Assembly (NCBI GenBank): GCA_020052415.1
Contig: JAGVPB010000021.1
Span: 1 to 64,000 of the forward strand
Direction of reading: 5' to 3'
DNA: 64,000 nucleotides
DNA from: Bacteroidales bacterium
GTDB taxonomy: Bacteria; Bacteroidota; Bacteroidia; Bacteroidales; JAADJA01
The notes under the pieces were generated by a model. That model worked only from the letters and a program-made list of their open reading frames with translations. It was not told the origin of the DNA and ran no database searches. The position numbers and the translations under genes are program-made. Positions 30,333 through 40,984 of this stretch are shown one piece after another (within the stretch, counting starts at the first letter, position 1; every line of letters starts with the position of its first letter).

Positions 30333-33300
30333 ATGAAAATAAGACCGATCCTTCTTACCAGTTTATTTATTTTAGCTGTATTTGCAAGCACCCTAGCAAT
30401 TTTTATAAGTTCCCAGAATAAGCCAAACTCTCTGCTTGTCCTTCCTAATACCGACGACTATAGCCAGGATTGGAAAAAAGTGGATTCCCTCGTCACTGCC
30501 GGATTACCGAAATCAGCACTCGACCTTGTTGAGGTAATATATTCAAAGGCACAAAAAGAAGCTAACCATCCACAATTTATCAAATCCACTCTTTATAAAA
30601 TAAAACTCAAGGCAGATTTCGAGGAAGAATTTATGGAATCGTCAATACAGGATATCGAAAAGGTCATTCAAAAATCAGGAACACCGGTAAAGCAAATCCT
30701 GTATTCCATTGAAGCCGATCTTTACTGGCGGTATTATCTGGCCAACCGGTATAAATTCATGGACAGGACAACTGTGGTGAATGTGAATTTGAAAGATATC
30801 CGCACATGGGACTTGAAAACTCTGCTCTATGCGGTAATTAAAAATTATAATTTATCAATTGGCGAAAAGGAAACCCTAAAAAAAACCAGTTTGAAGGATT
30901 ATGATGCCATCCTTGAAACTCAAAAAGATTCTAAAAAATACCGACCGACACTTTACGATTTTCTTGCTCACCGGGCACTGGAGTTTTTCAGGAATGACGA
31001 ATCCTCTATCATTCAACCCGTCTTCAGGTTTGAACTGGATAAAGAAAATTACTTTTCAAATGCCTCCGATTTTAAGGACATTCAGATTGAAACAAAAGAT
31101 ACAATTTCATTGAAGTTTTATGCTGTTGAAATCCTGCAGGATTTGATTTCCTTTCATCTGAATGATGCAGATCCAACGGCTTTGATTGATGCCGATCTGA
31201 TCCGGTTGGATTTTGTCCGCGATAATTCCATACTTGAAAATAAAGACAGTCTGTATCTTAATTCACTTTTAATTTTGGAAAAACAGTTTACCTCCCAACC
31301 GGCAGTGGCTGATGCTGGCTATAAAATTGCCAAGGAATATTCAAGGATGGGAAACCTTTACAATCCAAAGATTTCGGACCAGTATAAATGGGACAAAAAG
31401 AAAGCACTTGAAAAGTGCCAGGATGTAATCGAAAAATACCCTGGTACAGATGGAGCTCAGAATTGTATGATCCTGCAGCAGCAACTTAACAGACAAAATG
31501 TACAGCTTACATTTGAAAGCGTAAATGTTCCGGACAAACCATTCCTGGCATTGGCAGACTTCAGGAATACATCCAGGTTATGGCTTAAAATAATTCATTT
31601 GAATTATGATGAAGAAAGAGGTTTTCGTGATGAATACCGAAACACACGGGACCTTTTGATAAAATACAATTCCTATCCAGCTCAGCAATCCTGGTCAGTC
31701 GCCATTCCTGATGACGGTGATTTGCAGAATCATAGCGCCGAAATTAAAATACCGGCTTTACCATTAGGATATTATGTCGTTCTTGCAAGTACAACCGAAA
31801 AATTTCTCCCCGACAGCAGCCTCACGGCTTATGACTCATTCTGGATTTCCAATATCAGCTATATCAGCCAGAGTAATAACAAAACAGGTTACAGGTTTTA
31901 TCTGCTGGAAAGAGAAAACGGAACCGCACTTGTAAATGTCAACATAAGATTATTTTACAGACAGTATGATTATAATTCAAGGAAATACGAATATAAGGAA
32001 GGCGGTAATTTTATTTCTGATTCGAAGGGTTTATTTGAAATTCCTCCGATTGATGCCAATATCCATCCTAATTCATTTTCACTTGAATTCACTCTGAAAG
32101 GCGACAAGCTTGTTACAGGTGATCAGTATTATCATTCCGGATATTATCCACAGGAAGAAAGAAAAGAAACAAGAACGTGGTTTTTCACCGACCGGTCTAT
32201 TTACCGTCCAGGCCAAACGGTTTATTTCAAAGGAATTGTAATTGATAAATATAAAGACAGTTACTCAATTAAAACCGGATTTAAAACGACTGTTGAATTC
32301 ATGGATGTCAACTACCAGAAAATCACTGAAATTGTTCTTACAACCAATGAATACGGTTCTTTCAATGGAACATTCACGGCTCCTTCAGGTGTTCTGAATG
32401 GTTCGATGAGCATCAAAAATGAAAGCGGTTCCGTTAATATAAATGTTGAAGAATACAAACGGCCGACCTTTGAAGTGGTGTTCAATCCTTTGAAAGGCAG
32501 CTATAAACTTAATGAAAGGGTCACAGTTTCGGGTTCTGCAAAAGCGTATGCAGGGAATGCCATTGACCAGGCAGCAGTTAAGTACCGGGTAGTCCGATAT
32601 ACTTATTTCCCATGGAGATATTATTGGTTCGATTACTTCCCGTCGCAGCCGGAGATGGAAATTGCACAGGGTAGTACAGTAACCGGTCAGGATGGAAATT
32701 TTACAATTCAATTCATTGCCACTCCTGATCAATCTGTCCCTGAAAAACAACAGCCGTCATTCAGGTACATGGTTTATGCAGATATTACGGATATCAGCGG
32801 TGAAACTCAATCGGAATCAACCTCTGTTGAGGTTAGCAATATTGCCTTAAAAGTTGACTTGAATTTAGCTGAAACTATTGACAGAGCTGAGTTCAAAGAA
32901 ATTAAAATCAGAACCACCAATTTAAACGGACAACCTGAACCGGCTTCGGGTAAGATCATCATTTCAAAATTAATGGAGCCCGAACGTATTCTGAGAAGCA
33001 GGAAGTGGGAAAATCCTGATCTATCCCAGATGACAAAAGAGGAATTCGTAAAGGATTTTCCTTTTGATAGCTATATGAATGAGTCCGATCCCGAAAACTT
33101 AAAGACGGAATCAGTTGTTACCACTGTAAATTTTGATACAAAGACAGATTCAATCATTCAATTGGACAATGTACAGAGTTGGAAAAGCGGAAGATATATT
33201 GTAAATGTTGAAACCAAAGACAGTTTCGGGCAGGATGTTAAAACGAAAACCTTTTTCATGCTTTTTGAGAGAGAGGAAACCAAACCTCCGGTGAATGAGA

Positions 33301-36300
33301 TAAACTGGTTCCATGTGATCAAAGGTAAAGGTGAACCAGGCGAAAAGGCTTCATTCCTGCTCGGAACCAGGGATAAAAATGTCCATGTTCTGTATGAAGT
33401 TGTTCAAAAAGAAAAAATCATTCTAAACCAGTGGCTTGAATTGAGCAATGAACAAAAATTAATCGAAATACCGATTATTGAAGAGCATCGTGGTGGAATT
33501 TCGGTGAATCTCCTATTTATAAAGCACAACCGAAGTTTTGAAAGCCAGTTTAATGTTGAAGTTCCTTTTACCAATAAACAAATTGACTTTGAGTTTGAAA
33601 CCTTCCGCGATAAACTGGTTCCAGGACAAAAGGAACAGTGGAAGATAAAGCTTAAGGGTCATAACGGTGAAAAAATAGCCGCTGAACTTCTTACTTCCAT
33701 GTACGATGCTTCGCTTGATGCATTGCTCGATCATTCCTGGCAGTTCAGTCTTTATTCACAATTATTCGGGCATCTTTCGTGGGAGGCTTTTCAGTCATTC
33801 GGGACAAGCAAAAGCAGCCTTTATGTTCCTCCTTTTGTTTTCGATCAGCCTGTTTTCAGAGAATACGACCAGCTGAACTGGTTTGGATTTGATTATTTTG
33901 GAAGTTTGTATTATCGCAAAGGATATATGGAAAAAGGCGCTGCGATGGACGGCAGGCAGGCGCTCCCGGGGCAGGAAATGGCTATGGATAAAACAGAGGC
34001 TGTTCAGGAAGGAAATATAATTACGGAATCAATTAATAAAGATGAACCGGTTTCGGGTGAAAATTACCCCGGAAAAGAAACTGAAAAATTCTCAGGTATG
34101 CAGGTACGCAGGGATTTTCGGGAAACAGCATTCTTTTATCCATCGCTTAAAACGAACGAATCAGGTGAAATTGAAATCAGCTTTACGGTTCCTGAATCCC
34201 TTACCAAATGGAAGCTGATGGGGTTAAGTCACTCGAAAGATTTGTCATACGGACAATTTCAAAAGGAAGTTGTTACCAGTAAGAATCTGATGGCAATGCC
34301 AAATGCCCCGCGATTCTTCAGAGAGGGCGATAAAATGTTCTTTCCTGTCAAGATCGTAAATTTATCTGATAGTTCCCTTTCAGGATTCGCAGAGCTAAAG
34401 TTCTTCGATGCACGGACGATGAAAGACATATCCGAAATGCTCATGCCGGCTAATGAATCCTTGTCTTTTTCGGTTACCAAAGGAAATTCACAGGTTGTTT
34501 ACTGGGAGATAAATATTCCTGAAAATATTGATGTCATTGTTTACCGCATCAAAGCTACGTCTGGTGATTTTTCCGATGGAGAAGAGAAAGCAATTCCTGT
34601 TTTGAAAAACCGTATGCTGGTTACCGAATCGCTTCCAATGCCTTTAAAGGGAAATCAAACCCGGACGTTTAAATTTGAAAAACTTATTAATTCAGGCAAA
34701 GATTCAAAAACCCTGAAAAATCATAGATTCACCCTCGAATTTTCTTCCAACCCGGCGTGGTATGCGATTCAGGCACTGCCTTCCATTATGGAAAGCGAAA
34801 TAGAATCAGCGGATAACATCTTCGACCGTTACTATGCAAATAGCATTGCTTCTTACCTCGTAAATAAAAATCCAAAGATTAAATCGGTTTTTGAAGCCTG
34901 GAAGAATTATTCACCGGATGCGTTATTGTCGAACCTGGAAAAGAACCAGGAATTGAAATCAGCTATTTTGCGGGAAACTCCCTGGGTGATGGATGCTAAA
35001 AGTGAAACGGAACGCAAACAAAGAATTGCCCTCTTGTTCGATCTGAACCGGATGTCGGACGAATTGGCCGCCTCTCTTCGCAAACTTCAGCAAAAGCAAT
35101 CTCCCAATGGCGGCTGGCCGTGGTTCAAGGGAATGCCTGAGAGCAGGTACATTACACAGGAAATTGTGACCGGTTTCGGGCATTTGCAGCACCTCGGCAT
35201 CGCTGACCTGAAAAAGAATCCGGAAACCTGGAACATGGTCCGAAGTGCTATTTATTACCTTGATGAACGAATTAAGGAAGACTATGACTGGTTGATCAAA
35301 CACGATGCAGACTTAAATCTAAATCATTTGGACTATACCCAAATTCAATACTTATATGCCAGGAGTTATTTCCTTAGCATGCTTCCTGTTAAAGAAAATA
35401 TTCAGACGGCATTTAATTATTATCAGGAACAGGCAAAAAAATACTGGCTTGAAAATAACAAATATGCACAGGGTATGATCGCACTTGCCCTAAACAGACT
35501 TGGTGATAGTGCAATTTCTCAAAAGATCATGGCCTCCATCAAGGAACATGCATTGTATTCAGATGAAATGGGAATGTACTGGCGGGATAATATTGGAGGT
35601 TATTATTGGCATGAAGCTCCGATCGAAACACAGGCCTTGCTTATTGAAGCGTTTGATGAAGTTTCAATGGATTCCGGATCGGTCGAACAGATGAAAATAT
35701 GGCTTTTAAAACAAAAGCAAACTCAAAACTGGAAAACACCAAAAGCCACTGCCGAAGCGGTTTATGCATTGTTACTTAAAGGTTCCGATTGGCTGGTTTA
35801 CGATGAATTAGCAGAAATCAAAGTTGGTAAAGAGGTAATCAATCCTTTCGAAAGAGATGATACAAAATTCGAAGCCGGAACGGGATACTTTAAAACTTCA
35901 TGGTCAGGTGGTGATGTTAAACCTGAAATGGGAAACATTACAGTCACCAACAAAAATGAAGGGATTGCCTGGGGCGCCGTTTACTGGCAGTATTTTGAGG
36001 ACCTTGACAAGATCACATCACAGGAAACACCTTTAACTTTGGATAAAAAGCTCTTTGTTGAACGCAATACCGATGCGGGACCTGTTTTAGAAGCTTTGGC
36101 GGATGGAAAGAAGCTTAAAGTCGGAGACAAGATTAAAGTTCGTATTGAACTCCGTTCCGACCGTGATATGGAATACCTTCACATGAAAGATATGCGGGCA
36201 TCAGCCTTTGAACCTGTCAATGTATTGTCAGGTTATCATTACCAGGATGGATTAGGTTATTACGAAAACACTCTGGATGCTTCGACAAACTTTTTCTTTG

Positions 36301-36449
36301 AGCACCTGCGTAAGGGAACATATGTTTTCGAATACACATTAAAGGTTTCACAAAAAGGTGATTTCTCAAATGGCATTACCACCATCCAGTGCATGTATGC
36401 ACCTGAATTTACAAGCCATTCGGAGGGAGTAAGGGTTGTGGTTGAATAA
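30333..36449 (+). CDS. Bacterial alpha-2-macroglobulin family protein (thioester-less)
   Basis: A 2038-residue envelope protein with an N-terminal signal or anchor helix (residues 5-26). A helical N-terminal region reaches about 390, then the MG domains with the MG2 signature FFTDRSIYRPGQTVYFKGIV near 617. The alpha-2-macroglobulin core FRETAFFYPSLKTNESGEI lies near 1260, with SLTKWKLMGLSHSKD shortly after. The alpha/alpha-toroid near 1480-1800 contains NGGWPWFKGMPESRY. Where thioester forms have CxEQ, this one reads MESEIESADN with no cysteine. Bacterial members are thought to trap attacking proteases in the periplasm; no PBP1C partner gene is adjacent. Confidence 0.95.
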   Translation: MKIRPILLTSLFILAVFASTLAIFISSQNKPNSLLVLPNTDDYSQDWKKVDSLVTAGLPKSALDLVEVIYSKAQKEANHPQFIKSTLYKIKLKADFEEEFMESSIQDIEKVIQKSGTPVKQILYSIEADLYWRYYLANRYKFMDRTTVVNVNLKDIRTWDLKTLLYAVIKNYNLSIGEKETLKKTSLKDYDAILETQKDSKKYRPTLYDFLAHRALEFFRNDESSIIQPVFRFELDKENYFSNASDFKDIQIETKDTISLKFYAVEILQDLISFHLNDADPTALIDADLIRLDFVRDNSILENKDSLYLNSLLILEKQFTSQPAVADAGYKIAKEYSRMGNLYNPKISDQYKWDKKKALEKCQDVIEKYPGTDGAQNCMILQQQLNRQNVQLTFESVNVPDKPFLALADFRNTSRLWLKIIHLNYDEERGFRDEYRNTRDLLIKYNSYPAQQSWSVAIPDDGDLQNHSAEIKIPALPLGYYVVLASTTEKFLPDSSLTAYDSFWISNISYISQSNNKTGYRFYLLERENGTALVNVNIRLFYRQYDYNSRKYEYKEGGNFISDSKGLFEIPPIDANIHPNSFSLEFTLKGDKLVTGDQYYHSGYYPQEERKETRTWFFTDRSIYRPGQTVYFKGIVIDKYKDSYSIKTGFKTTVEFMDVNYQKITEIVLTTNEYGSFNGTFTAPSGVLNGSMSIKNESGSVNINVEEYKRPTFEVVFNPLKGSYKLNERVTVSGSAKAYAGNAIDQAAVKYRVVRYTYFPWRYYWFDYFPSQPEMEIAQGSTVTGQDGNFTIQFIATPDQSVPEKQQPSFRYMVYADITDISGETQSESTSVEVSNIALKVDLNLAETIDRAEFKEIKIRTTNLNGQPEPASGKIIISKLMEPERILRSRKWENPDLSQMTKEEFVKDFPFDSYMNESDPENLKTESVVTTVNFDTKTDSIIQLDNVQSWKSGRYIVNVETKDSFGQDVKTKTFFMLFEREETKPPVNEINWFHVIKGKGEPGEKASFLLGTRDKNVHVLYEVVQKEKIILNQWLELSNEQKLIEIPIIEEHRGGISVNLLFIKHNRSFESQFNVEVPFTNKQIDFEFETFRDKLVPGQKEQWKIKLKGHNGEKIAAELLTSMYDASLDALLDHSWQFSLYSQLFGHLSWEAFQSFGTSKSSLYVPPFVFDQPVFREYDQLNWFGFDYFGSLYYRKGYMEKGAAMDGRQALPGQEMAMDKTEAVQEGNIITESINKDEPVSGENYPGKETEKFSGMQVRRDFRETAFFYPSLKTNESGEIEISFTVPESLTKWKLMGLSHSKDLSYGQFQKEVVTSKNLMAMPNAPRFFREGDKMFFPVKIVNLSDSSLSGFAELKFFDARTMKDISEMLMPANESLSFSVTKGNSQVVYWEINIPENIDVIVYRIKATSGDFSDGEEKAIPVLKNRMLVTESLPMPLKGNQTRTFKFEKLINSGKDSKTLKNHRFTLEFSSNPAWYAIQALPSIMESEIESADNIFDRYYANSIASYLVNKNPKIKSVFEAWKNYSPDALLSNLEKNQELKSAILRETPWVMDAKSETERKQRIALLFDLNRMSDELAASLRKLQQKQSPNGGWPWFKGMPESRYITQEIVTGFGHLQHLGIADLKKNPETWNMVRSAIYYLDERIKEDYDWLIKHDADLNLNHLDYTQIQYLYARSYFLSMLPVKENIQTAFNYYQEQAKKYWLENNKYAQGMIALALNRLGDSAISQKIMASIKEHALYSDEMGMYWRDNIGGYYWHEAPIETQALLIEAFDEVSMDSGSVEQMKIWLLKQKQTQNWKTPKATAEAVYALLLKGSDWLVYDELAEIKVGKEVINPFERDDTKFEAGTGYFKTSWSGGDVKPEMGNITVTNKNEGIAWGAVYWQYFEDLDKITSQETPLTLDKKLFVERNTDAGPVLEALADGKKLKVGDKIKVRIELRSDRDMEYLHMKDMRASAFEPVNVLSGYHYQDGLGYYENTLDASTNFFFEHLRKGTYVFEYTLKVSQKGDFSNGITTIQCMYAPEFTSHSEGVRVVVE

Positions 36450-36572: not shown

Positions 36573-37031
36573 TTAAATTTCATAATTAGCAGAATGGATT
36601 TGAGGGAAACTTCTACCAGTTAATCTTACCTTTTGAAAGAATGAAAACAGTAAAACCAGGAAAATATACACAGCTAAAGTCATCCCATAAAAACCAGGAA
36701 ACTGCAACGGATGTGTAATCAAAATGATTACTTTTCCGAGAACGGCAAACGGATCCGTAAAAATATCCCAGCTATTAGGAAGAAAAAGCAGCCAAAGCAG
36801 GCCGGGAAGAATAATATGGTGCAATCGCCCGTACATCCTTAATACTATTCGGCTGCTAATCCATAGGGGAACAAAAGCCAGGAAAAGATTCCAGGCAAGA
36901 AAAATAAAATGCAGGGACCCTGTAAAAACTATCCTAACAAAAAGCAGACTGAGACTGAATACGCATGATACCAGTATGTAAAATACAAGACTGTTTTCCA
37001 GGGTTAGAACCCTATTTATTGTCCTGTTCAT
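36573..37031 (-). CDS. Short DUF1361-like membrane protein
   Basis: A 152-residue protein with about four transmembrane helices (18-38, 40-60, 73-90, 105-135). The segments FIFLAWNLFLAFVPLWIS and LLWLLFLPNSWDIFTD match the N-terminal half of DUF1361 proteins. These usually exceed 200 residues, and the C-terminal part here diverges (FPGFYGMTLAVYIFLVLLF), so it may be truncated or frame-shifted. No function is known. It lies 58 bp upstream of the creD end on the same strand. Confidence 0.6.
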   Translation of the reverse strand: MNRTINRVLTLENSLVFYILVSCVFSLSLLFVRIVFTGSLHFIFLAWNLFLAFVPLWISSRIVLRMYGRLHHIILPGLLWLLFLPNSWDIFTDPFAVLGKVIILITHPLQFPGFYGMTLAVYIFLVLLFSFFQKVRLTGRSFPQIHSANYEI

Positions 37032-37089: not shown

Positions 37090-38421
37090 TTAATTGCTTT
37101 GATTTGCTGCGTTATTTATTTGTCCGTACCAGTTGATCCGCTTTGAAAGGTACATAACTACTCCCAGGATAACAAAGAGCCCGATACTACCGAGAAGCAG
37201 GCTGTAATCCTCCATCTGAAGAATAACAAACAGGAAAGCATACAGTGTAACAAGTAATGAAAAAGTTATAGTCGTAAGTTTATAGGATTTGAACATGCTT
37301 TGAGAATAAACCGTGATCAATCCGACTATTGCAGCGGCAGAAATCACATATGCCAGGTTAAAACCAACCTGTTCGGAAAGCGATAGAAGAAGGGAATAGA
37401 ACAGGAGTAGCGCAAATCCAACCAAAAGGTACTGAACCGAATGAATCCGTTTTTTATTGATGATCTCGGCAAACAGAAAAATAAGGAACGTCAAAGCAAT
37501 GAACATGAAAGCGTATTTGGCAGATCGCATGGATTTCTGATATTCATCAACGGCGAAAAGCAGGTTTACCCCGAAAAATGAATCATTCATGTTGAACGTC
37601 TGGTTATCCCAGAATTGAGGAAAATTCCGGTTCAAATCGAGTATGTTCCAGTTAGCTTTAAAACCTGACTCACTGATCTCATGGTGATCGGGTAAAAAAC
37701 TGCCGGTAAAAGAAGGCGAAGTCCAGGGTGACTGAATAGTAACATTCGTAGTTTTACCTGCAGGGATAAAATACAGATTTTCACTTCCATTCAGGCTAAG
37801 GTCCAGACTGAAAGTATAACTTCCTGCGCCGGGATCGGGATTTATTTTGGAGGTTACTCCGGAACTTGCAATACCCGGATACTCAATTCCGGACTCAGCA
37901 GAGAAGGTATGATTATTAAGTTTCAGCAATATTTCATTCTGGATACCCCTGAGATCGCTTATTCCTGTTAGCAGGCAGGCCTTTTCCCAATAGATTTGTT
38001 CTGATGAAATTCCGTATTTGCCGAACTCAGGAAGCGTTATTGAACCGGACAGGTGAATATGCGATTGATAAACAATCACCTTGTAGATGCCCCGGTATCG
38101 TATCTCCGGGTTCATCTGTCCTGAAATATCAAGAGTTTCAGGAAGCACATAAAATGTTTTGGAAACCGTATATTCCTCATCACCATTTTTTTGTATCTCG
38201 AAATAAGGTAATGCCAGGATGGGCCCTGAAATGGTTTGGGACCGGCCCCATTTATCACTCACTTCCTGTACTACAGAATCACGGGTCATCTGCCGCTCCC
38301 TGATCATATCCTGTATCATGGCGCCGGGGATCAGGAGTAAAAGGATTAAAAATCCAATGATCGCTATCTTTACTGAGATTGAACGCGAAATTTTTTCTGT
38401 GAATTCTTGTAATGTTTGCAT
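37090..38421 (-). CDS. creD: Cell envelope integrity inner-membrane protein CreD
   Basis: A 443-residue protein with an N-terminal transmembrane helix (about 18-36), a large periplasmic domain (about 40-300) and a C-terminal block of five to six helices (about 305-425). Family blocks are seen: IPGAMIQDMIRERQMTRDSVVQEV, QTISGPILALPY and SEQVGFNLAYVISAAA. CreD is linked to envelope stress and beta-lactam response. An operator-like palindrome precedes the gene and a winged-helix regulator lies 54 bp upstream. Confidence 0.94.
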   Translation of the reverse strand: MQTLQEFTEKISRSISVKIAIIGFLILLLLIPGAMIQDMIRERQMTRDSVVQEVSDKWGRSQTISGPILALPYFEIQKNGDEEYTVSKTFYVLPETLDISGQMNPEIRYRGIYKVIVYQSHIHLSGSITLPEFGKYGISSEQIYWEKACLLTGISDLRGIQNEILLKLNNHTFSAESGIEYPGIASSGVTSKINPDPGAGSYTFSLDLSLNGSENLYFIPAGKTTNVTIQSPWTSPSFTGSFLPDHHEISESGFKANWNILDLNRNFPQFWDNQTFNMNDSFFGVNLLFAVDEYQKSMRSAKYAFMFIALTFLIFLFAEIINKKRIHSVQYLLVGFALLLFYSLLLSLSEQVGFNLAYVISAAAIVGLITVYSQSMFKSYKLTTITFSLLVTLYAFLFVILQMEDYSLLLGSIGLFVILGVVMYLSKRINWYGQINNAANQSN

Positions 38422-38440: not shown

Positions 38441-38461
38441 GTACTTTGAAATACAAAGTAC
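38441..38461. promoter_or_regulatory. Operator-like palindrome upstream of creD
   Basis: Arms GTACTTTG and CAAAGTAC (perfect 8-bp complement) around a 5-bp spacer AAATA, placed between the regulator gene and creD. The same palindrome recurs at 39417-39437 upstream of the membrane partner. It is the probable binding site of the adjacent winged-helix regulator. Confidence 0.65.
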
Positions 38462-38475
38462 AAGGTAAAAAAAAT

Positions 38476-38772
38476 TTATTGCTTTTTAATTAAATCTTCC
38501 AGGGCATCAAGGTGTAATCTGAAAAGGGTTTTTCCTGCTTCCGTGGCCTGGTAACTGGTATTGGGCTTCCGGCCAACAAATTGTTTTTTCATTTTGATAT
38601 ATGCCTTTTCTTCGAGGGCTTTAAGGTGGCTGGCTAAATTTCCATCGGTTGTTTCCAGCAATTCCTTCAGGCTGTTGAATTCCATCCAGTCATTGACCAT
38701 CAGCACCGACATAATTCCCAGTCGTATCCTGTTTTCAAAAGCTTTATTTAAATTGGCCAGAATGTTTTTCAT
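38476..38772 (-). CDS. Winged-helix transcriptional regulator of the creD cluster
   Basis: A 98-residue stand-alone winged helix of the HTH_34/ArsR-MarR-like group: NRIRLGIMSVLMVNDWMEFNSL (helices 1-2), LLETTDGNLASHLKALEEKAYI (recognition helix), then a wing with KKQFVGRKPNTSYQATEAG. There is no sensor domain, so any signal must come via a partner. Its start overlaps the stop of the upstream membrane protein by 4 bp. Matched palindromes flank the two-gene unit, suggesting autoregulation together with control of creD. Confidence 0.88.
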   Translation of the reverse strand: MKNILANLNKAFENRIRLGIMSVLMVNDWMEFNSLKELLETTDGNLASHLKALEEKAYIKMKKQFVGRKPNTSYQATEAGKTLFRLHLDALEDLIKKQ

Positions 38773-39398
38773 CGTTCGTAGCGGAAGTACATGATCAGTC
38801 CATAAACAATATGCAATATCCCAAACCCGATCGTCCAGAAAACCAGACCGAAGTTCGTGAATATTCCGGCAAGCAAACCTAAAGTAATTTCTAAAATACC
38901 AAGGTAATGAATTTCGCCAAAGGTATATTTACCGGCATTAACCAGGGCCAAACCGTAAAATGTCAGCATTGCAGAGGCGACCAGAGTAATATCACTGCGG
39001 AAAATGAGAATCAGGGTAAACAATCCTCCCGTTATCAATGGAATAAAAAAGTGAACTAACAATCTTTTGGTTGTGTGGTCCCACAATTTCAGATGATTTC
39101 TTTTCGCTTTCCGGTAGGAGAAAAACAGTGCGCACCCCAGTGCAAAAATGAATGTTAAAGATGCTACAAGCAAAAGCAGACCAGTCATATTTCTGCGGAC
39201 AGATGATCCAGGAACATAAAGATGCTCATCGTACATAAGTTGTCCGAAGTTTAGCAACCAGTATATCGCAAAAGCTCCAAGAATGGCGACAATGCCGGCA
39301 GAAACTCCGGATAAGCCACTCAGCGAATGAAATCGCGAGGAGCGTTCCATCAGGTTCTTTATTTCACTTAAGTCTTTAAAATTCTGTGAATCTTCCAT
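38769..39398 (-). CDS. Membrane protein co-transcribed with the creD regulator
   Basis: A 209-residue protein with about six transmembrane helices (32-50, 72-95, 112-130, 135-150, 160-178, 182-200) after a soluble N-terminal segment of about 30 residues. I recognise no characterised family. It is coupled to the regulator gene by a 4-bp overlap, so it may modulate or sense for that regulator; this is inference from position. Confidence 0.8.
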   Translation of the reverse strand: MEDSQNFKDLSEIKNLMERSSRFHSLSGLSGVSAGIVAILGAFAIYWLLNFGQLMYDEHLYVPGSSVRRNMTGLLLLVASLTFIFALGCALFFSYRKAKRNHLKLWDHTTKRLLVHFFIPLITGGLFTLILIFRSDITLVASAMLTFYGLALVNAGKYTFGEIHYLGILEITLGLLAGIFTNFGLVFWTIGFGILHIVYGLIMYFRYER

Positions 39399-39416
39399 GT
39401 TCTATTAATATTAAAA

Positions 39417-39437
39417 GTACTTTGAAACGCAAAGTAA
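39417..39437. promoter_or_regulatory. Operator-like palindrome upstream of the membrane protein-regulator unit
   Basis: Arms GTACTTTG and CAAAGTAA (7 of 8 pairs) around AAACG, 18 bp upstream of the ATG at 39398. It has the same sequence family and spacing as 38441-38461. Confidence 0.65.
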
Positions 39438-39524
39438 AGACATATTATTTTATCTTACAAACATTTTATGAAAATTTATTCAGATCCGTTTTTTGAAATT
39501 GTAAGGACAGAAATTCCAATAGGA

Positions 39525-39620: not shown

Positions 39621-40538
39621 CTAATACCTGATAACGCTCAAACTTGACACTGCAGCCTCAACATCAATTATTATCTGGTTGGTGGCACTTGAAAAATTTG
39701 AAGTCCGGTACAATCCTGTGCTTATTTTTTCGAATCCTTCGAGATCTCTTGAAGAAAGAACTGTGCTGGTATGTAACTCGCAACCACTGGCTTCCGGAAT
39801 TTTTAACTCTATTGATGATGCCCCTGCATCAATATTTACTTTTGTTTGTACCGACCGTTCCCCAAGCCTCAGTTCAAGACTTGAGGCACCTCCTTTAATA
39901 TCAATTTTTTCAACTTTAAACGGTGTTATATCCATTTCAAGGCCTGCAGCTCCAACTTCAATATTCATTTCCCAAACAGGCTCCGGATTCAAGGCCAGCC
40001 AAACCGTATTCTTAAAATCCCGGTTGCGAATATGAGTTTGATCCTGCCTGACTTTTATGGTTGCATTATTTCCATCACGGGTTGTTATTGCGCTGTAGGA
40101 TCCAAATCCTCCTTCATTATCAATTTCGTAAAGCTCCTGTGTCTGGTTTTTAATATAGAATTTACCGGCAGCAGCATCAAGGTCAAGCCTAACCATTGTC
40201 AGTGTGGAATCATAGGAATCGGTAAGATGTTGTTGCTTCCAGGCATCTTCATCATTATATTCATGGGTATGTTCATGTGAATTCCATCTGAACCAGGAAT
40301 ATTCTTCGGATGGATACAGGGCAAGAATGATAATGGCAATGAGGATGGCGGCTCCTGAAAGAATTAATTTAATAAAGGACTTTACCGGCAAAATGGCAAT
40401 TCCCCAGAAAACAAAAATCAAAGGCCAAAGCCTGAACAAGGAGTGGAAGTTAAAATAAAAGACGTCTAAATTCCTTAAAATAAAAATAACTCCAAGCGTA
40501 ACCAGAAGGATACCCCAAAATACATTTCCCTTTTTCAT
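39621..40538 (-). CDS. LiaF-like envelope-stress membrane protein (LiaI-LiaF transmembrane region)
   Basis: A 305-residue protein beginning with GILLVTLGVIFILRNLDVF and LWPLIFVFWGIAIL, the LiaI-LiaF-like membrane region (three helices within residues 8-75). A soluble beta-rich domain follows with repeated short strands such as GGASSLELRLG, DAGASSIELKIP and EAAVSSLSVIRY, suggesting a stacked beta-helix-like fold. A His/Glu/Asp-rich stretch (SHEHTHEYNDED) sits after the last helix. Its start overlaps the PspC gene's stop by one base. Relatives take part in cell-envelope stress sensing; the role here is inferred. Confidence 0.82.
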   Translation of the reverse strand: MKKGNVFWGILLVTLGVIFILRNLDVFYFNFHSLFRLWPLIFVFWGIAILPVKSFIKLILSGAAILIAIIILALYPSEEYSWFRWNSHEHTHEYNDEDAWKQQHLTDSYDSTLTMVRLDLDAAAGKFYIKNQTQELYEIDNEGGFGSYSAITTRDGNNATIKVRQDQTHIRNRDFKNTVWLALNPEPVWEMNIEVGAAGLEMDITPFKVEKIDIKGGASSLELRLGERSVQTKVNIDAGASSIELKIPEASGCELHTSTVLSSRDLEGFEKISTGLYRTSNFSSATNQIIIDVEAAVSSLSVIRY

Positions 40539-40984
40539 TATAATTTGTTTTTTTGAAAACTGTTAATAATAAGAATAGCTCCAATTACAACCAGGATCAG
40601 CGGCCACAAGTCACCGAAATCAATCCTGGGAACAAACCGGTCAATAAGAAAAATAGAGCCTATGGTTATGAGGATTATTCCTCCCCATATACTGCCGTCA
40701 CTTTTTTGTTTCATTTTTTGTTCCATGTTTTCTGGTTTAATTTCTTTATCCGTTGGTTCTTCCTTAACTGATTGAGCTGTTGGATTTCCCGTTTGATAAG
40801 GCTGAATCGGTGTTATGATCCAAAATACGAGATAGGCAAGTAAGCCGCTACCACCGGCAAAAAAAGCCACAACAAATATTACTCTGAAAATTACCGGATC
40901 GGTACTGAAGTACTCGCCAAGGCCACCGCAAACTCCACCTATCGTGGAATTATGAAGGCTCCGGTATAAACGCTTTTGTTCCAT
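40538..40984 (-). CDS. PspC domain-containing membrane protein
   Basis: A 148-residue protein. The N-terminal PspC domain has the signature GGVCGGLGEYF followed by a helix FRVIFVVAFFAGGSGLLAYLVFWII. A charged linker (about 65-95) leads to a second hydrophobic region GGIILITIGSIFLIDRFVP and LWPLILVVIGAILII, a LiaF-like membrane unit. It overlaps the downstream LiaF-like gene by one base, so the pair forms an envelope-stress module. Confidence 0.9.
   Translation of the reverse strand: MEQKRLYRSLHNSTIGGVCGGLGEYFSTDPVIFRVIFVVAFFAGGSGLLAYLVFWIITPIQPYQTGNPTAQSVKEEPTDKEIKPENMEQKMKQKSDGSIWGGIILITIGSIFLIDRFVPRIDFGDLWPLILVVIGAILIINSFQKNKL

Follow-up and report, generated by a model that had tools for sequence, protein, structure and literature searches.

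A palindrome pair around a winged-helix regulator gene next to creD in Bacteroidota, very probably the regulator's own control switch for cell-envelope genes

The locus considered here raises the question of what controls creD in a member of the Bacteroidales. In gammaproteobacteria, CreD is described as an inner-membrane protein under the control of the two-component system CreBC, and its loss as harmful to envelope integrity in Stenotrophomonas (PMC4689548). We analyzed a stretch of 64,000 nucleotides (termed the window; contig JAGVPB010000021.1 of assembly GCA_020052415.1, positions 1 to 64,000), in which the product of creD (37090..38421, minus strand) matches PF06123 with 525.8 bits, over positions 2 to 428 of the 428 of the profile, and the equivalog NF008712 (inner-membrane protein CreD) with 505.5 bits. 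The cre-tag has the consensus TTCAC-N6-TTCAC, and we found no copy of it with at most one mismatch between positions 34503 and 40276. Since the creD region holds no cre-tag, we rejected a CreBC-type direct repeat as the control of this gene; neither creB nor creC lies beside it, as no kinase or response regulator was found among the six neighboring genes scanned.

Two palindromes around a regulator gene

The order of the features on the minus strand is a PspC gene (40538-40984), a LiaF-TM-type gene (39621-40538), operator A (39417..39437), a membrane protein gene (38769..39398), a regulator gene (38476..38772), operator B (38441..38461), creD, and the gene of a DUF1361 membrane protein (36573..37031; PF07099, 29.3 bits for a cut-off of 25). 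The stop codon of the membrane gene overlaps the start of the regulator gene. The gap between creD and the DUF1361 gene is 58 nt, and the latter is probably part of the creD operon. The PspC and LiaF-TM-type genes (39621-40984, minus strand) belong to envelope-stress families and lie directly upstream of the operon of operator A, in the same direction. On the plus strand, an open frame of 2038 residues (30333-36449) looks, as judged by eye, like a bacterial surface protein of the alpha-2-macroglobulin type.

The original prediction had placed a palindrome before creD, a copy of it with one mismatch before the membrane protein-regulator unit, and a small winged-helix regulator gene between the two, and we found all three. 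Read on the minus strand, operator B, upstream of creD, is a perfect palindrome, GTACTTTG-N5-CAAAGTAC, with 8-bp arms and a 5-bp spacer, and operator A, upstream of the membrane protein/regulator pair, reads TTACTTTG-N5-CAAAGTAC; the scan returned GTACTTTGAAATACAAAGTAC at 38441-38461 with 0 mismatches and GTACTTTGAAACGCAAAGTAA at 39417-39437 with 1 mismatch. Both palindromes are intergenic, with 19 nt between B and the creD ATG and 18 nt between A and that of the membrane gene, and many motif copies within coding regions, which the original prediction had named as evidence against it, are not what the window holds. The two operators are its sole places with at most 3 mismatches (0.22 expected), and two or more such places occurred in 1 of 100 shuffles.

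Evaluation of the host genome (4,671,819 bases in 94 contigs) revealed the core TACTTTG-N5-CAAAGTA at 2 places, both in the window, and a reversed control pattern gave 0 occurrences. When the full 16 bases were searched with at most one mismatch, a third place appeared at C84:30098, before a PadR gene. Allowing 2 to 3 mismatches added 11 further places, for a total of 14 at 3 mismatches or fewer; because the reversed control gave 26, we regard these additional places as noise and rejected a large regulon in the host genome.

We then analyzed the regulator protein. Its 98 residues match PF13601 (HTH_34) with 101.6 bits, over the curated cut-off of 27; the match to PadR (PF03551) is 20.5 bits, under the cut-off of 27, and the score for HxlR equals the HxlR cut-off. 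The AlphaFold model (pLDDT 92.9) has the winged-helix elements H-H-H-E-E-H. The closest sequence in the PDB is the archaeal PF13601-like protein PH1061 (1ub9; E value of 7.9e-8), which also came first among the best Foldseek folds, together with the PadR protein Rv3488. To our knowledge, PH1061 has no known operator or target, and we found no paper on PH1061/1UB9 in the open literature. In the motif TDGNLASH, residues D43 to H49 are invariant among 16 aligned orthologues and T42 is nearly so; D43 to H49 are predicted by the model to lie in the recognition helix.

Linkage of the palindrome to the regulator across Bacteroidota

A scan of genome contigs for relatives of the regulator yielded 67 loci, all from Bacteroidota lineages (three of them, L035 to L037, apparently belong to genomes that also figure, as G012, G005, and G010, in the phylum sample described below). 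The membrane gene was detected by tblastn at all 67 loci, the copy of L069 being cut by the end of its contig. When up to 3 mismatches were allowed, 66 of the 66 testable loci had a site upstream of the membrane gene (A site), and 61/67 had one in the gap that separates the regulator from its downstream neighbor (B site); no B site at this threshold was found in L054, L091, L093, L097, L098, and L100. Matches elsewhere in the regulator loci numbered only 3, and Markov-shuffled controls gave 8 matches in 1.59 Mb, all with 3 mismatches. The arms are about 100% conserved in these relatives; the spacer and the flanks vary. As a control, the 3.2 kb taken at the second HTH_34 gene of the host genome (C2:46360, L034; 35% identity) contained no site.

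The original prediction had also called for a search of the genome and its relatives, and this search revealed that the palindrome travels with the orthologues of the regulator. Among 60 genomes (the host genome and 59 relatives), the regulator is present in 14 and the exact core in 12, of which 10 have the regulator; the 4 remaining regulator-bearing genomes contain the longer pattern with at most one mismatch. The core matches of the 2 other genomes (L024 and L025) were rejected as operators, each lying within a reading frame of 185 to 194 codons. In the host genus, the regulator was found in only 6 of 17 genomes (G000-G016), several of the others being incomplete, a distribution that we ascribe to patchy loss or transfer.

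A wider sample comprised 247 Bacteroidota genomes, the host genome included. The strict pattern ACTTTG-N5-CAAAGTNCTTT gave 109 sites in 58 of these genomes, and the reversed control gave 1. By hand-tallied scores, a regulator match of at least 90 bits was present in 74 genomes, one of 60 to 90 bits in 20, a weaker one in 54, and none in 99. Strict sites were found in 53/74 genomes of the first class, in 3/20 of the second, and in 2 of the 153 others (G169 and G274), i.e., in 56/94 versus 2/153 genomes (odds ratio of 111; P value of 2e-27, which relatedness among the genomes inflates). Among the strong-match genomes, the 21 that lack a strict site all have a copy with 2 mismatches or fewer ahead of the membrane gene, and in G085, G108, G128, G197, and G245, where the strict sites all lie elsewhere, the linked copy has 1 mismatch; a linked operator copy with at most 2 mismatches is present in 74/74 genomes with a regulator of at least 90 bits. 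In the 60- to 90-bit class, an upstream copy with at most 3 mismatches was found in 19/20 genomes (G223 being the one without), and in distant clades the site has drifted, for example to ACTTTG-N5-TAAAGTTCTTT.

The position and strand of the sites are equally fixed. The distance to the regulator is at most 2.6 kb for 80 of 109 strict sites, all 80 of which share its strand; most of these stand either at -640 to -750 relative to its start or at +20 to +50 past its end. The other 29 are unlinked. G274 has its strict site before the membrane gene, beside a regulator that scores 53 bits. In G169, the strict match (C7:82059, L180) stands in a genome with a weak HTH_34 match only and has no convincing gene downstream; it may be a chance match.

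Promoter anatomy and candidate modes of control

Bacteroidota promoters have a consensus -33 element, and TTG is found 18 to 21 nt upstream of the A site in 49 of 66 loci (0 to 12 of 66 at nine other offsets). In the window, the predicted -33 element TTTG (39458..39461, minus strand) lies 20 nt 5' of the predicted -7 box, which is the 5' arm of operator A (39430-39437, minus strand). Across the loci this arm reads T[T/A]ACTTTG, with the first T and the terminal TTTG present in 65/66 and an exact TAnnTTTG in 28/66. The -7 box of sigma-A promoters in Flavobacterium psychrophilum is reported as TAnnTTTG, at -12 to -5 (PMC9723704). Since the 5' arm of the A site matches such a box, the start point would fall within the palindrome; the first ATG follows after 4 to 8 nt in most loci and after 18 nt in the window. 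A protein bound at A would cover both the -7 box and the start point, which points to a repressor site and to autorepression.

The same palindrome stands in the promoters of the regulator's own operon and of the neighboring unit, as is typical of an autoregulated repressor, and the pair is very probably the regulator's own control switch for cell-envelope genes. We infer that the regulator, as a PF13601 dimer, likely binds operators A and B and represses both its own two-gene operon with the six-helix membrane protein and the next transcription unit, here creD-DUF1361. On A, the dimer would block RNA polymerase by occupying the -7 box and the start point; upon its release, CreD and the regulator/membrane protein pair would be made together, and newly made regulator would close the switch again. 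The membrane partner would probably relay an envelope signal.

The promoter at B is less certain, because TTG is absent at the right distance and a T-tract is found instead. Only 2 of 61 B sites have TTG at the A-type distance; a T run occupies positions -13 to -7 (T in 89 to 100% of the 61 sites) and is followed by ACTTTG-N5-CAAAGTACTTTTAAAA. In the window, the tract consists of 8 T on the minus strand (38467..38474), directly 5' of operator B. Over the 61 B sites (in L035-L101), a run of about 7 to 8 T keeps a fixed distance before B, whatever the target gene, and is absent before A. The T-tract is possibly an upstream promoter element of creD.

This difference between the two promoters, with -33 and -7 elements and the operator on the -7 box at A and a T-tract without properly spaced TTG at B, lends some weight to another reading, namely, that the regulator binds both sites, represses at A, and activates the creD-side promoter at B. 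We consider it unlikely, as only 19 nt separate B from the ATG in the window, and no more than 37 nt separate it from the first ATG in the 61 relatives, a spacing too short for a usual activator site, and as PadR- and MarR-type regulators are mostly repressors. The Listeria PadR proteins described in PMC6624303 are cases in point.

That the palindrome belongs to some other protein, e.g., a PadR-family regulator, and that the HTH_34 gene is a bystander is very improbable, even though the sole PadR gene of the host genome has a look-alike site, the near-copy at C84 (L004, G000:C84:30098-30118). In 30 PadR loci of the host genome and its relatives (L243-L272), in some of which the start codon is possibly misplaced, we found a perfect TACTATG-N5-CATAGTA in 8 and near copies in several more. 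This PadR site differs by one base pair per arm and, judging from its letters, is best read as the sister operator of a sister regulator; we rejected the one-mismatch place at C84 as a true target, since it has the look of a sister operator that serves the PadR gene itself. The single base pair that differs in each arm would keep the two related regulators apart. Moreover, that PadR is present in 38/60 genomes versus 14/60 for the regulator, and it is the regulator that the TACTTTG-type core follows (in 10 of the 12 core genomes, the matches of L024 and L025 lying within a reading frame), with site positions fixed relative to the HTH_34 gene. Least probable of all is a palindrome without a dedicated protein, whether a mere core-promoter element of face-to-face -7 boxes, as the resemblance of TTACTTTG and TAACTTTG to the sigma-A box TAnnTTTG (PMC9723704) might suggest, or an RNA hairpin: the arms are equally conserved, yet only one can be a -7 box, the core occurs at just two places in the host genome and is nearly absent from regulator-less genomes, and, on the coding strand, the T-tract comes before the palindrome and not after it, for which reason a terminator or attenuator was rejected.

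Targets of the operator and the membrane partner

Repression by the regulator, as we propose it, would act on more than creD. The gene was found in 32 of the 67 regulator loci; in the Flammeovirga loci L080, L081, L083, and L084, another gene (of the radical-SAM type in L080) lies between the regulator and creD. Of the 35 loci without creD, 29 have a downstream protein from one cluster that holds DUF4153 proteins (3 members were checked against Pfam, and all are DUF4153), with DUF1361, diacylglycerol kinase, and small proteins encoded nearby, and a DUF1361-type cluster, one member of which was confirmed by Pfam, is represented in 18. In L047, the gene next after the regulator encodes a VIT-domain protein. 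Seen from the side of creD, 50 of the 247 sample genomes contain the gene, which is adjacent to the regulator in 21 of them by hand count; of the 29 creD genes not linked to a regulator, 18 were examined in their upstream DNA, and 17 of these lack any site within 3 mismatches. A copy with 2 mismatches precedes creD in G131, where the regulator lies elsewhere. In G108 (C7:78028-79591, L201), the regulator-adjacent creD appears as two separate matches, and this creD may be broken.

The unlinked strict sites extend the list of candidate targets. None of the 26 tested (of 29) lies inside a reading frame of at least 150 codons, and the families checked with Pfam behind such sites are VIT-domain, C92 papain-like, DUF4153, and DUF2809 proteins and an mpaB-type oxygenase, in addition to weak DoxX matches and a distant CreD relative. 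A membrane-like family of about 190 residues, without a Pfam match, was also seen behind unlinked sites in different genera (L110:1501, L111:1501, L113:1501, L168:2527, and L239:2287), its likeness being judged by eye. We found no convincing gene downstream of the site in L166, L178, and L180. Members of the CreD, DUF4153, and VIT-domain families are encoded behind unlinked sites as well as in the regulator-adjacent slot, which argues for one regulon. As far as the sequences tell, the constant unit is the membrane protein/regulator pair with its own operator, and creD is one interchangeable target among mostly membrane proteins. The autoregulated switch of the original prediction is therefore upheld in its autoregulation, by co-occurrence across the phylum and by fixed positions, and falls short in its restriction to CreD (32/67 loci and 21/50 genomes).

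The partner of the regulator has 209 residues, with an N-terminal helix followed by six predicted membrane-length helices. The N-terminal helix is conserved (DLxxIRxxMERSSRFxSLSGLSG) and contains residues that are invariant or nearly so among the relatives. The partner matched no Pfam family over its cut-off, no fold in the PDB (no hit below an E value of 0.65), and none of HAAS, DUF1700, and DUF1129 at E values up to 1. It may be an envelope sensor.

Several known systems resemble this dyad. LftR, LstR, and LltR of Listeria are described as PadR-type repressors of membrane-protein operons and are thought to answer envelope-acting compounds (PMC6624303). As described there, they have in common with the present system, as we predict it, a small winged-helix protein, cotranscription with membrane proteins, negative autoregulation, and few targets; the present system differs in a regulator that belongs to PF13601 and stays under the PadR cut-off, in a second operator, set apart from the first, that precedes creD or other genes, and in a fixed six-helix partner. 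The HAAS-PadR dyad, for which a role in membrane stress, alternative to that of two-component systems, has been proposed (PMC11237479), likewise joins a lone winged-helix regulator to a membrane protein, and the window has PspC and LiaF-TM genes in the immediate vicinity of the pair; unlike the dyad of that account, ours has a partner without a HAAS-type match and a regulator under the Pfam cut-off for PadR. By analogy, this is a dyad that would work like the PadR-type repressors and HAAS-PadR while failing both the PadR cut-off and the HAAS domain tests. In the CreBC-CreD system, control is exerted by two components (PMC4689548), whereas a one-domain regulator would suffice here. In the open literature, a scope that excludes subscription papers and regulon databases, we found no description of the operator or the regulator; the matches listed for the motif letters were unrelated, the search for HTH_34/PF13601 led nowhere, and no paper on the regulation of DUF4153 was found by title.

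More tentatively, and with the chances somewhat against it, the regulator and its six-helix partner may form a phylum-wide membrane-signaling dyad, built from parts other than those of HAAS-PadR, that holds interchangeable envelope proteins (CreD, DUF4153, DUF1361, VIT-domain, DoxX-like, C92, DUF2809, and others) under one operator, with the partner sensing the envelope and capturing or releasing the regulator via its conserved N-terminal helix.

Since the same families occur in the slot and at unlinked copies, the operator would tie DUF4153, DUF1361, and VIT-domain proteins and the 190-residue family to CreD by shared control. For CreD and several envelope proteins of unknown function in Bacteroidota, the analysis thus predicts which regulator and which operator control them and what regulon they form, and a single small protein and a single palindrome would suffice to test all of this.
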